DNA of 52,260 nucleotides from the NCBI GenBank assembly GCA_029781045.1, contig JAKOXL010000048.1, positions 1-52,260 of the forward strand, written 5' to 3'. Source of the DNA: Bacillota bacterium. GTDB taxonomy: Bacteria > Bacillota > UBA994 > UBA5500. Positions 23,144 to 28,031 of this stretch are shown piece after piece. The position numbers and the translations under genes were made by a program. Position 1 is the stretch's first letter, and the number at the start of each line of letters is the position of its first letter. The notes beneath the pieces are model-generated. The model had not been told where the DNA came from. It searched no databases and worked only from the letters and a program-made list of their open reading frames with translations.

Positions 23144-25333
23144 TTAGTCTGGCAACAAACCAGCACGTAGACGCCATTCCAACAGGGTATGGCGTTCTTC
23201 CACCTGATTGTTCTTCACCGCAAGAGCTATAGCTTTCTTGGTCCCTACCAATACTACTTGACGTCGAGCCCGGGTAATCGCCGTATAGAGTAGATTGCGC
23301 TGCAGCATGATGTAGTGCTGAGTGGAAACGGGCAGCACGATTACTGGGTACTCGCTGCCTTGGCTCTTGTGCACCGAAATGGCATAGGCTAAGGTCAGTT
23401 CATCCAGCTCGGTAAAATCATATACCACCAGGCGCTCATAGCGGCCTTCAGGATAAACCACGGCCAACTCCTGCTCTTCCAGATCAATGGCCTGGATGCG
23501 CCCGATGTCTCCGTTGAAGACCTGTTTCTTATAGTTATTGCGGATTTGCATCACCTTGTCGCCTAGACGGAAACGCTGAAAACCTTGCCGGATCTCGGTT
23601 TTCTGTGGCGACGGGGGATTCAAGCTGCGCTGCAATACCCCATTCAAGTTATCCACCCCGATGGGCGTACGCCGCATAGGAGAAAGCACTTGAATGTCTT
23701 CGATAGGATGGTAGCCATAGGCGGTCGGTAGCCGCTGACGACAGAGCTCCACAACGGTATCTAAGATTCTCAGAGGTTCCGACTCCTCAAGGAAGAAAAA
23801 GTCTTTACCCCTAACATTGAGATAGGGAAATTCTCCCCCATTGACCCGGTGGGCGTTGACCACAATCATGCTCTGGCCCGCCTGTCGAAAGATGGTCTTG
23901 AGACGAACGGTGGGTATGGCTTGAGAGGAGATGATATCTCGCAACACATTGCCTGGACCCACAGAAGGTAACTGGTCAATATCACCAACTAAGACCAATT
24001 GGCAACCTACCGGAATGGCCTTGAGAAAATGGTACATGAGAAGGATGTCGATCATGGACGCTTCATCCAGAATAACCACATCTGCCTCTAGAGGGTTGTC
24101 CTCGTTGCGCCCAAAGATCATTCCCTGGCCTTCCACGAAGTTGTATTCCAGGAGGCGATGAATCGTCTTGGCTTCCACTCCAGTGGTTTCGCTCATGCGT
24201 TTAGCCGCCCGCCCTGTGGGTGCAGCCAAGAGGACACGACGCTGGCGATCACCCATCAGCTGCAATAGGGAGCGTACAATGGTGGTCTTACCGGTACCAG
24301 GGCCACCGGTAATGACCGTAACCCCATTCTGAAGGGCCGTCAGTAGGGCCTGTCGCTGTTCCGGTGCCAGGCGTAAATGCTGTTCCTCTTCCAACACAGC
24401 CAACTCTTGTTCCAGGCCCAAGTCCAACTCCAACTGCCGCGGCTGACGAACCAGTTGGGCCAGTCGTGTGGCCACTCCCTGTTCGGCATAAAAGAAAGGG
24501 GCCAAGTATATTACCCTTTGCCCATCTACGTCGACCAGAAAAATCTCCTTTTGCTGCCGCAGAACGGCACAGGCGGGCGATAGTCGCTCCACATCCACCT
24601 CCAGAATAGCAGCCGCTTCCTGCAAGAACCTGTCCAGCGGATAGGAGGTATGACCTGCATCAGCCAATTGGCCCAGAGTATACTTGATGCCAGCTATAAG
24701 GCGTTCTTGCGAATTAGGGGCAATACCTAGGGACTGGGCCAACTTATCGGCGGTCTTAAAGCCGATGCCGAACACCTCATCGGCCAGCCGGTAAGGGTTC
24801 TCCTCAATCACTTGCCGTGCTCCACTGCCGTAGTGGCGATAGATGCGGGCCGCCAGACTCGGTGACACACCGTAACCCTGTAAGAAGATCATCATGTCGC
24901 GGATCTCGCCCTGCTCAGCAAAAGCCTCTGCGATGGCGGCTGCCTTGGCCGCCCCCAACTTAGGTACCTCCGCTAGGCGCTCCGGATTCTGCTCCAACAC
25001 CTGCAGGGTCTCCAGCCCGAAGTATTCAACGACACGCTTAGCGGTGACTGGACCCACCCCTTTCACTAACCCGGAACCCAGATACTTCTCCAGTCCAGCT
25101 AGGGTTGCTGGCGCCACTGCCAGGTAACTGTCTACTTTAAATTGCCGTCCGTACTCGGGGTGCAAAATCCACTCGCCTTGCATCTGTAGAGTTTCCCCCA
25201 CCGTCAATTGGGGAAAGGTTCCCACGGCGGTTACCAAATCCCGCTGCCCTTGACAACGCAGACGGATAACCGAGTAGAAGTTTTCCTCATTGCGAAAGGT
25301 GATGCGCTCCACGCTGCCGACTAATTGCTCCAC
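23144..25333 (-). CDS. recD2: RecD2-type SF1 DNA helicase (YrrC-like)
   Basis: 729 aa, SF1B 5'-3' helicase involved in replication fork and recombination repair in bacteria lacking RecBC. The N-terminal OB-like region (1-75) and helix-hairpin-helix repeats (KGVGPVTAKRVV, FGIGFKTADKLA) precede the helicase core: Walker A ITGGPGTGKTTIV (about 341-353), Walker B VVILDEASMIDI, LVGDIDQLPSVGPGNVL, and the C-terminal AISVHKSQGSEYP and YTAITRARR. The length is normal for RecD2. The GTG at 25333 is chosen (AGGAGG at 8 bases); an in-frame GTG at 25342 overlaps that site. It lies just downstream of the candidate structured RNA. Confidence 0.95.
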   Translation of the reverse strand: MEQLVGSVERITFRNEENFYSVIRLRCQGQRDLVTAVGTFPQLTVGETLQMQGEWILHPEYGRQFKVDSYLAVAPATLAGLEKYLGSGLVKGVGPVTAKRVVEYFGLETLQVLEQNPERLAEVPKLGAAKAAAIAEAFAEQGEIRDMMIFLQGYGVSPSLAARIYRHYGSGARQVIEENPYRLADEVFGIGFKTADKLAQSLGIAPNSQERLIAGIKYTLGQLADAGHTSYPLDRFLQEAAAILEVDVERLSPACAVLRQQKEIFLVDVDGQRVIYLAPFFYAEQGVATRLAQLVRQPRQLELDLGLEQELAVLEEEQHLRLAPEQRQALLTALQNGVTVITGGPGTGKTTIVRSLLQLMGDRQRRVLLAAPTGRAAKRMSETTGVEAKTIHRLLEYNFVEGQGMIFGRNEDNPLEADVVILDEASMIDILLMYHFLKAIPVGCQLVLVGDIDQLPSVGPGNVLRDIISSQAIPTVRLKTIFRQAGQSMIVVNAHRVNGGEFPYLNVRGKDFFFLEESEPLRILDTVVELCRQRLPTAYGYHPIEDIQVLSPMRRTPIGVDNLNGVLQRSLNPPSPQKTEIRQGFQRFRLGDKVMQIRNNYKKQVFNGDIGRIQAIDLEEQELAVVYPEGRYERLVVYDFTELDELTLAYAISVHKSQGSEYPVIVLPVSTQHYIMLQRNLLYTAITRARRQVVLVGTKKAIALAVKNNQVEERHTLLEWRLRAGLLPD

Positions 25334-25437
25334 CGCTACCACCTCCTGTTCCTGGGCGCCAACATTCTACAAGTCTTTTGTTAAACGCCCACCGGGTAAA
25401 CTCCTGCTTCTGGCAGCGCCGGCCCCGTGAGGGGAGC

Positions 25438-25475
25438 AAAAAAAAGAGCCCTACTTGTGGGCCTGAAGTAGGGCT
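25438..25475 (-). terminator. Rho-independent terminator ending the candidate RNA
   Basis: Stem AGCCCTACTT/AAGTAGGGCT with a 9-base loop, followed on the minus strand by C and eight T. It ends about 105 bases before the recD2 start, so it terminates a transcript that begins upstream, or acts as an attenuator for recD2. Confidence 0.9.
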
Positions 25476-25621
25476 GGTGAGGATTTTAGGAGCCGCTATC
25501 AGTTGTTGCGTTAACAGCTTGGGGGGCTTCGCCACAACTCGGGGCTAGTGTTAGCTCCGCACGCTGCTCCTAACCTTGGGTAAATTGGGGTATTTGGGGT
25601 TGTTCATCTGGTGTTTACTTT
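25438..25621 (-). ncRNA. Candidate structured non-coding RNA or recD2 leader (three-way junction)
   Basis: No gene fits this stretch. On the minus strand a closing helix (25563-25573 with 25486-25496: TTAGGAGCAGC with GCGGCTCCTAA, one mismatch) encloses two hairpins. P3 is at 25540-25559 (CGG-A-GCTA, loop ACAC, TAGC-C-CCG). P2 is at 25501-25539 (AGTTGTGGCG with CGCAACAACT, one G-A mismatch, 19-base loop). The terminator at 25438-25475 follows directly. An extended -10 promoter at 25628 would start a transcript of about 185 bases. A short frame inside (MNNPKYPNLPKVRSS) lacks a ribosome site. It may be a free small RNA or a recD2 attenuator. Known Bacillota RNAs near com genes, such as the raiA motif, should be compared; I could not identify the family. 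Confidence 0.6.
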
Positions 25622-25627
25622 GGCTAC

Positions 25628-25648
25628 ATAATAGCACAAGATTCGACA
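25628..25648 (-). promoter_or_regulatory. Extended -10 promoter with a Spo0A-box-like site
   Basis: Minus strand: TGTCGAA (25642-25648), 8 bases, then TATTAT (25628-25633) with TG one base before it (extended -10). No -35 match is seen. A single TGTCGAA is expected several times by chance in a window of this size, so the Spo0A reading is weak; the promoter itself is supported by the terminator-bounded structured segment downstream. Confidence 0.45.
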
Positions 25649-25693: not shown

Positions 25694-26152
25694 CTATGTG
25701 GGACTTTCTTCTAGGACTATAGTCCCAGGCGGCACAGTGCCAGTGGGCAGCAACATTTGCTCCAGAGCTTGAAGCGCAGTAAGAGGTGTGTTGTGTTGCA
25801 CCATGTCGAAGAACCAAAGCACTTGACCACGGACCCGATTCATACTCTTGCCTATGTCGGTCACCTGGGATTGGAAGTATAACTCCGGGTGACTGTGCTG
25901 CCAACGCTGCACTATGCGTTGTTCGGCTTGTGCTTCATCACTAGCCAGAATCCAGATTTCCACTAGACGAAGATGGCTTACCTGCGAAAATAAACGGCAG
26001 ACCGTACGTAGAAAGGGATCTAACCACGACTCTGCCTGTTCCACTCTGAGCATTATACTGACTGTTACCTGCTGCTCCGGATTTACTATGTATAAAACCC
26101 ATACCACCCATGCCACCAGCAACAGAACGCCGATAAGAGTAACCCAGAACAT
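25694..26152 (-). CDS. Hypothetical single-pass membrane protein
   Basis: 152 aa, not recognised. An N-terminal hydrophobic segment (FWVTLIGVLLLVAWVVWVLY, about residues 2-25) would anchor it, followed by a soluble domain of alternating strand and helix (VTVSIMLRVEQAESWLDPFL, VEIWILASDEAQAEQRIV). That order resembles small membrane-anchored proteins with a ferredoxin-like fold, but no family is claimed. The ATG at 26152 follows GAGGTGG. It lies 69 bases downstream of degU and may share its transcript. Confidence 0.65.
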   Translation of the reverse strand: MFWVTLIGVLLLVAWVVWVLYIVNPEQQVTVSIMLRVEQAESWLDPFLRTVCRLFSQVSHLRLVEIWILASDEAQAEQRIVQRWQHSHPELYFQSQVTDIGKSMNRVRGQVLWFFDMVQHNTPLTALQALEQMLLPTGTVPPGTIVLEESPT

Positions 26153-26221
26153 AGCACCACCTCTTTCTGACCGCAAATTGGGAGGTGCTATATAGTATGT
26201 AGCTGGCAGGCAAAGTGCTAG

Positions 26222-26890
26222 TTATTTGATGCTGACAAGTTTAAGCTTTACTCCCTGTACAACGGCTTGCGTACGATCTTTGACATCTAGCTTCCGCAGG
26301 ATACTGCTAACATGATTCTTAACAGTCTTCTCACTGATGAACAACTCGGTGGCTATCCTCAGATTGGAATAACCCTGGGCCATTAGGTTTAGTACTTCCA
26401 GCTCCCGGGGACTCAGCAACTGCTGAGCTGCCACCGCTGGCGCGCTTGTGGCCGCCGGCTCCTCAGAGAGGCGAGCAAACTCCTTCATCAGTTTATCTCC
26501 CAAGCCGGGATTGACTACCGAACCGCCCACAGCCACCGTGCGAATGGCCTCACATAGCCGGAGGGGTTCCACATCCTTCAGCAAATAGCCGGCCGCACCT
26601 GCCCGCACCACTTCGAACAGGTACTCCGTATCATCGTGAATAGTCAATACCAGAATATTAACCTCCGGATAGCGGGCCTTGATGCGCCGAGTAGCCTCGA
26701 TACCATTGCCTCCGGGCATATTAATATCCATCAGAATCACATCGGGGCTTACCTCTCCCAGAGCTAACATGGCTTCCACTGAATTGCCGGCTTCACCTAC
26801 TATCCGGAAATCGGGCTCCAGTTCCAAGATACGGCGCAATCCTTTACGAAATAGTTTGTGGTCATCTACTATGAGAATGTTAATGCACAT
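26222..26890 (-). CDS. degU: DegU-type response regulator (NarL/LuxR family)
   Basis: 222 aa. Receiver domain (1-120): acidic pair VDD at residues 8-10, phosphoacceptor Asp55 in VILMDINMPG, Thr in LVLTIHDD and Lys in YLLKDV. C-terminal LuxR-type HTH (about 158-220): LSPRELEVLNLMAQGYSN and ISEKTVKNHVSSILRKL. It is the partner of DegS in control of competence, motility, exoenzymes and biofilm. The ATG at 26890 overlaps the end region of degS (AAGGAGG inside degS). The degS-degU-comF-flg order is as in B. subtilis. Confidence 0.93.
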   Translation of the reverse strand: MCINILIVDDHKLFRKGLRRILELEPDFRIVGEAGNSVEAMLALGEVSPDVILMDINMPGGNGIEATRRIKARYPEVNILVLTIHDDTEYLFEVVRAGAAGYLLKDVEPLRLCEAIRTVAVGGSVVNPGLGDKLMKEFARLSEEPAATSAPAVAAQQLLSPRELEVLNLMAQGYSNLRIATELFISEKTVKNHVSSILRKLDVKDRTQAVVQGVKLKLVSIK

Positions 26891-26891
26891 A

Positions 26892-28031
26892 CTAATCCGC
26901 CTCCTTAATGGGGACCCTTACCGTTATTCTGGTTCCATGGCCATGCAGCGAACAGATTTGCCAAGTTCCCTGCAACAGCTCAGCCCGCTCCCGCATGCTC
27001 AGCAAGCCAAAATGGTCGCCTTCTCGGTGGAGGGTTTCACTTACATCGAAACCGCAACCATCATCTTTAATCACGATTGTAAGGGCTGCCGTTTCAAACT
27101 CCAGTTTAACTATAGCATGTTGAGCCTTGGCATGTTGACTGACATTGTTCAAGGCTTCTTGGACGATGCGGAAAACGCCTACTTCCATGTGGGCAGGCAA
27201 GCGCTTTTCATAACCAAAGACGGCAAACTCTACGGTTGTGGACGAGTGCTTGTTGAACTCCTCGATAAAACGGCGCAGAGTCGGAACTAGCCCCAGATCA
27301 TCTAAGGTCATGGGACGCAAATCGTAGATTATCTTGCGTATATCTTGCAGACTGGCCCGCACCAGATCCTTCAGATTGCGCAGTTCCTGTCGTACCTGAT
27401 CCGTATCGTTATCCAGCAGCTTTTCACAAATCTCAGCCCTGATAACGACGCTGGCTAGGGTTTGGGCCGGACCATCATGGATATCGCGGGCCACCCGGCG
27501 CCGCTCTTCTTCTTGGGCTTTGATAACTCGCACGCCTAACTGCTGCCGCTGCTGGATACCATCCAAATGGCCTCCCAGATCGTGCAGACTGTTGCGCAGA
27601 TATTGCAGTGCTACTCCCACATGGGTAGCTAGTTTATCGGCCCGTTCCACAGTGGCCTGTAAGTTCCGCAATGAGCACTCCAGCTCGTCCCGTTGAGCCC
27701 GCAACTGGGCTTCCCGCTCTTTCAGCACGAACAATTCCAGCTGAACCACTTGGGCATCTTCGTAGGCATTCCTAATAGCTGCTTCGGAGTGGCTGCGAAA
27801 AGTGCGGCTCACTTCCATAAGCCTTATTCTGGCCTGCCGAAACTGCCGCTCCTTTTCATCCACTTGCCGAATAACCTGCTCAGTGGCCTGTTTCACTTCC
27901 AACAGCTGGGCTTCAACTCGCACATATTCGGTTCTAGCCATTTCCGCGATTTCAAAAATCTCACTCTTACTCTCGTCAATGACATCTACTATCTTGTTGA
28001 TGATCTCGTCCAGCTTGTCGAAAATGGTCAA
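26892..28031 (-). CDS. degS: DegS-type cytoplasmic sensor histidine kinase
   Basis: 379 aa soluble kinase with no membrane segment. The long coiled-coil sensor region (about 1-165) is typical of DegS, followed by the HisKA_3 motif EEERRRVARDIHDGPAQTLA with phosphoacceptor His185, and the HATPase_c region (QEALNNVSQHAKAQH, IKDDGCGFDV, GLLSMRERAELL). The only usable start is TTG 28031; GGGGGTG stands just before it and AGGAGG 17 bases upstream, so translation initiation is not clear-cut. It is directly upstream of degU with one intervening base. Confidence 0.93.
   Translation of the reverse strand: MTIFDKLDEIINKIVDVIDESKSEIFEIAEMARTEYVRVEAQLLEVKQATEQVIRQVDEKERQFRQARIRLMEVSRTFRSHSEAAIRNAYEDAQVVQLELFVLKEREAQLRAQRDELECSLRNLQATVERADKLATHVGVALQYLRNSLHDLGGHLDGIQQRQQLGVRVIKAQEEERRRVARDIHDGPAQTLASVVIRAEICEKLLDNDTDQVRQELRNLKDLVRASLQDIRKIIYDLRPMTLDDLGLVPTLRRFIEEFNKHSSTTVEFAVFGYEKRLPAHMEVGVFRIVQEALNNVSQHAKAQHAIVKLEFETAALTIVIKDDGCGFDVSETLHREGDHFGLLSMRERAELLQGTWQICSLHGHGTRITVRVPIKEAD

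Follow-up and report, generated by a model that had tools for sequence, protein, structure and literature searches.

A predicted small RNA with conserved C-rich single strands, encoded beside degS-degU-like genes in one family of uncultured Bacillota

The window analysed here, a stretch of 52,260 nucleotides from an uncultured member of the Bacillota (genome G000), contains upstream of recD2 a segment that had been proposed to form a three-way-junction RNA. This raises the question of whether the segment encodes a free small RNA or a leader that attenuates recD2. The element is located on the minus strand, from about position 25621 to 25438, and recD2, orf160 as well as the degU-like and degS-like genes all lie on the same strand (Table 1). 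Downstream, the start of recD2 follows at a distance of approximately 100 nt, and beyond recD2 a comFA-like helicase is encoded. Upstream, the RNA is separated from the degU-like gene by orf160, the product of which has no match to a Pfam family; this gene is likewise present in G003 (56%), and its position between degU and the RNA is kept within the RNA's family. DegU regulators are known to steer lifestyle decisions in Bacillota. Spo0A is also encoded in the genome of the window.

Table 1. Features of the locus, with positions in the window
Feature	Position	Strand	Remarks
DegS-like sensor kinase	26892..28031	-	Pfam DegS PF05384, E 1e-52
DegU-like response regulator	26222..26890	-	Pfam Response_reg + GerE
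orf160, small protein between degU and the RNA	25694..26176	-	hydrophobic N-terminus
Near-perfect palindrome TGGGACTATAGTCCTA / TAGGACTATAGTCCCA, candidate operator of the DegU-like regulator	25712..25727	-	inside the last codons of orf160
TGTCGAA, Spo0A-box-like heptamer	25642..25648	-	TGTCGA kept in 3/3 genomes
Extended -10, TGC-TATTAT	25628..25636	-	hexamer TATTAT / TATCAT / TATTCT in three genomes
Predicted small RNA, about 180-185 nt	25438..25622, start near 25621	-	-10, leader, junction and terminator kept in G000, G001, G003
Unpaired C/A-rich 5' leader AAAGYAAACACCAGATRAACAACCCCAAAYACCCYAA	25585..25621	-	almost invariant in three genomes
P1 5' arm	25563..25573	-	TTAGGAGCaGC
P2 hairpin CGGaGCTA/TAGCcCCG	25540..25559	-	four pairs changed on both sides
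P3 5' arm	25530..25539	-	AGTTGTgGCG
Apical hairpin AGC[CCCCCAA]GCU on P3	25516..25528	-	C-rich loop invariant
P3 3' arm	25501..25510	-	CGCaACAACT
P1 3' arm	25486..25496	-	GCgGCTCCTAA
Intrinsic terminator + U8 tract	25438..25475	-	hairpin common to sister family f2
recD2, next gene downstream, outside the RNA unit	23144..25342	-	Pfam HHH_RecD2

Folding of positions 25585-25438 yielded the junction both as the minimum-energy and as the centroid structure (z -2.5; 2 of 200 shuffled sequences were as good), a signal that was diluted to z -1.35 when the flanks were added. The minimum-free-energy fold reproduced the three helices with the sizes and single mismatches that the earlier note had described: P1 closes the junction, P2 and P3 form the arms, and each helix comprises one mismatch. 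The tip of P3 consists of a 14-nt block, AAGCCCCCCAAGCT, that is identical in all three genomes carrying the RNA, and the apical CCCCCAA loop is predicted to be open with an unpaired probability of 0.98-1.0. As had been proposed, the junction is directly followed by a terminator, composed of the perfect 10-bp stem AGCCCTACTT-9 nt-AAGTAGGGCT (25475-25447), a C and eight U residues (25445-25438). Its loop, GGCCCAC, represents a third C-rich stretch, which is weaker than those of the leader and the apical loop.

Read from 5' to 3', the unit thus comprises the TGTCGAA heptamer, the extended -10, the predicted start, the open C/A-rich leader, the three-way junction and the terminator. The extended -10 was verified just upstream of the start, with a TGN preceding the hexamer in G000 and G001 and the hexamer kept across the three genomes; the -35 sequence TTCGCC appears weak by eye, and a simple promoter scan did not report the -10 site of the small RNA. 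The Spo0A-box-like heptamer pointed out previously is present and conserved, but it is placed in the promoter spacer and not at -35, an atypical position. Over a stretch of 34 nt, the leader is predicted to be open, with a mean unpaired probability of 0.83-0.91.

A DNA search of the relatives identified the RNA at the same location in G001, where the copy is complete (85% identical), and in G003, a member of another genus, where it is partial. The covariance model R1, for which only the G000 and G001 sequences were used, recovered the G003 copy with 76 bits (E 5e-17), and the G001 and G003 sequences, folded separately, adopt the same architecture (z -3.9 and -3.8, respectively). With the conserved blocks fixed and the rest shuffled, P1 and P3 were as strong in 0, 0 and 1 of 400 cases for G000, G001 and G003, respectively. 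In alignment A5, which comprises only three homologs and was adjusted to a model derived from two of them, 98.2% of the pair cells are standard and seven pairs in this recD2-upstream region have changed on both sides, compensatory changes of the kind on which the earlier note had made its proposal depend. None of 500 shuffles reached any of five measures, and structures slid along A5 gave pairing in 26-50% of the cells, which is far worse. A hand alignment by helix agrees with A5, and the mismatches in P2 and P3 correspond to pairs in the relatives. The RNA is conserved, with compensatory changes, in two other genomes, which is better than chance; the locus very probably encodes a real, conserved and free-standing RNA, the structure and independence of which are well supported. 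The highest conservation resides not in the helices but in two single strands, the leader AAAGYAAACACCAGATRAACAACCCCAAAYACCCYAA at the 5' end and the P3 tip AAGCCCCCCAAGCT with its C-loop, both of which had previously been overlooked.

The RNA is present in three of the four genomes of one family of uncultured Bacillota (G000, G001 and G003); the fourth genome, G002, is 86% complete, and the match to recD2 is missing there as well. Searches with the covariance models R1 and R2 in 398 genomes of the phylum, including 15 of the class, did not reveal the RNA outside its own family, and the weak matches obtained (L123-L127) are in keeping with chance or with A/C-rich strings that resemble the leader. 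When 84,980 species were scanned for the pattern, 62 matches resulted, of which only L092 and L097, corresponding to G003 and G001, score as the RNA; these relatives are the Bacillota MAGs AS09scLD_318 and SRR1561995_bin.50. No true match was found in the viral contigs searched. Neither does a known family, 6S included, explain the region, given that the window contains no Rfam match at gathering and only chance matches at E<=10. The raiA motif (RF03072), which had been brought up as a candidate and for which membership demands a covariance-model score of at least 101.3 bits, was unmatched in the window at gathering, in the region at E<=10 and in the 15 class genomes at E<=1. The raiA RNA is widespread in Bacillota, with comFC and raiA as its usual neighbours; both are absent beside the RNA, which is flanked by orf160/degU-like and by recD2. 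The raiA family is excluded for this RNA, which is matched by no Rfam family. It is narrowly distributed and, in the way it should work, looks like the C-rich small RNAs, although by its sequence it belongs to none of them.

With moderate confidence, we propose a trans-acting small RNA under the control of DegSU, whose C-rich regions would pair with mRNAs. An RNA of about 180 nt would be transcribed from its own promoter beside the degS-degU-like genes and would be controlled by the DegU-like regulator binding to the upstream palindrome. The three-way junction would present the C-rich apical loop, and this loop and the open leader could base-pair with target mRNAs at G-rich stretches, possibly together with Hfq, thereby changing the translation or stability of the targets in the fashion of RoxS and IsrR. 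We infer regulation, targets and mechanism; pairing with G-rich mRNAs is suggested because the terminator, Hfq (encoded in G000, G001 and G003), the two-component regulator and the open C-rich segments resemble RoxS and IsrR. Two hallmarks of C-rich trans-acting RNAs were found, namely an independent transcription unit with an intrinsic terminator, as judged by sequence only, and conserved unpaired C-rich regions, as judged by predicted openness. When seeds were counted over 452 kb of genome, complements of leader 6-mers showed no enrichment at the 412 translation starts covered, with 112 hits versus a shuffled mean of 130, and leader complementarity at starts was no higher than in coding sequence. 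Complements of the apical loop were slightly enriched at the same starts, numbering 47 versus a shuffled mean of 30, and 27 of 200 shuffles were as high. A search for long complementary target sites did not yield a conserved one, and none stood out. At the GC content of the sampled genome, 52%, runs of G are a less sharp marker of Shine-Dalgarno sites than they are in Staphylococcus.

That target enrichment was not found would also be expected of a structured RNA that does not act by base pairing, namely a protein-binding sponge or scaffold, raiA/ModT-like in spirit, in which the C-rich leader serves as the protein site. In line with this, the leader and the apical loop are kept as sequence over 30 nt or more, beyond the needs of short seeds. 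However, the helices vary freely, unlike those of ModT; we regard a sponge or scaffold with a putative protein partner as possible but rather unlikely.

As a cis-acting leader, the element would attenuate recD2, with transcription ending at its terminator except when a signal shifts the RNA towards an alternative fold. Its position on the recD2 strand, so closely upstream, is consistent with this idea, and in G000, the only genome in which the recD2 -10 is replaced, some read-through could be needed. In contrast, recD2 has its own TATACT -10 past the terminator in G001 and G003, a conserved element (TTTGCTATACTTACG and TTTTGATATACTTACG, respectively), and in the sister family f2 the terminator hairpin occurs without recD2, which lies on other contigs. 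Moreover, pairing of upstream segments with the arms of the terminator is weaker than that between the two arms and falls at places that differ between genomes, and a shared alternative pairing that breaks the terminator, i.e., an antiterminator, was sought in the three genomes and not found. Given that the f2 hairpin is located away from recD2 and that a separate -10 serves recD2 in both relatives, the RNA is probably not a recD2 leader, and attenuation appears quite unlikely. Hence, of the two readings that the earlier note had left side by side, the free small RNA is supported by the structure, promoter block and terminator, all of which are conserved in three genomes, whereas the attenuating leader was not supported. 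In the G000 segment 25342-25437, the TATACT core is replaced (ACCCGGTGGG) and its flanks are conserved.

Of the eight genomes of sister family f2, seven contain the terminator hairpin, CCTACTTNNGGCNNACAAGTAGG, once each, with at most one mismatch. There, the hairpin is located 3' of a short Flp-type pilin-start frame (GQGMVEYGL) and downstream of a degU-like gene, which is the same gene as that beside the RNA (59-61% identical); the pilin slot was read where the contig was long enough (G004, G006, G008, G010, G011 and G012). At the f2 loci L004, L005, L007, L008, L009 and L010, the hairpin lies between the Flp-type pilin gene and the further pilus-type genes that come after it. Its stem and GGC loop core are near-invariant in f2, a conservation above that usual for terminators. 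The palindrome TAGGACN4GTCCTA occurs with at most one mismatch at only two sites in G000, one of them just upstream of the RNA promoter, and once each in G004, G006 and G010, between the degU-like and pilin genes; in G001 and G003, it contains 3 and 2 mismatches, respectively, plus a further conserved half-site. In the RNA's family (f1), conservation of the palindrome may be partly coding, since it is located inside the end of orf160. Because regulator, palindrome and terminator are common to both, the RNA occupies, within a regulated transcription unit, the slot that is filled by a pilin in f2.

The sharing of slot, regulator, palindrome and terminator with the f2 pilin unit could likewise signify a relic, in which promoter and terminator of the pilin unit survive and the RNA between them represents neutral remains. 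In agreement, one f2 pilin used as a query gave no significant match in the f1 genomes, a query that falls to E 1e-10 within f2. However, neutral sequence would not be expected to show compensatory changes or a leader that hardly varies, and a relic is very improbable. We tentatively consider it possible, though doubtful, that a regulatory RNA replaced the pilin coding sequence inside a DegSU-controlled unit in the RNA's family, or, in reverse, that the pilin was inserted. If true, operator, promoter region and terminator hairpin would have been retained, and it would be possible to trace how a small RNA gene emerged out of the transcription unit of a protein gene. That the leader encodes a peptide or small ORF (ATGAACAACCCC...), with an ATG and 18 codons in G000 and 12 in G001, is scarcely credible and was rejected because start codon and frame are not conserved: G003 has ATA for ATG, the lengths differ, and a Shine-Dalgarno sequence is missing.

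The RNA represents a family missing from Rfam, for which usable models of its structure and candidate pairing regions are now at hand, and the sharing of slot, operator-like palindrome and terminator with a pilin unit provides a concrete case for the origins of small RNA genes. Its scope is narrow, as it is known from only one family of uncultured bacteria and is an ordinary kind of small RNA.

Among known systems, the raiA motif or ModT RNA of Bacillota is structured and free-standing, measures about 200 nt, often lies near com genes and is linked to sporulation; its sequence conservation is reported to be broad, across the whole RNA (PMC11706538). The RNA described here is likewise a free structured RNA of Bacillota; unlike ModT, it is conserved in single strands, its helices vary, and RF03072 is unmatched. 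IsrR of Staphylococcus contains three conserved single-stranded C-rich regions, with C-rich motifs through which it base-pairs at Shine-Dalgarno sites (PMC9410917). With IsrR and with FsrA of Bacillus, the RNA shares single-stranded conserved C-rich regions and the form of a small terminator-ended RNA, but neither sequence nor position; moreover, these RNAs are under Fur control and act on iron targets, and Staphylococcus genomes are AT-rich. In RoxS, four C-rich regions serve pairing, and the RNA is induced by the two-component system ResDE (PMC5419742). Compared with RoxS/RsaE of Bacillus and Staphylococcus, the present RNA differs in the absent Rfam match, the three-way junction, the long open 5' leader and the other neighbouring regulator, and resembles them in being a free small RNA with a terminator and several unpaired C-rich regions.
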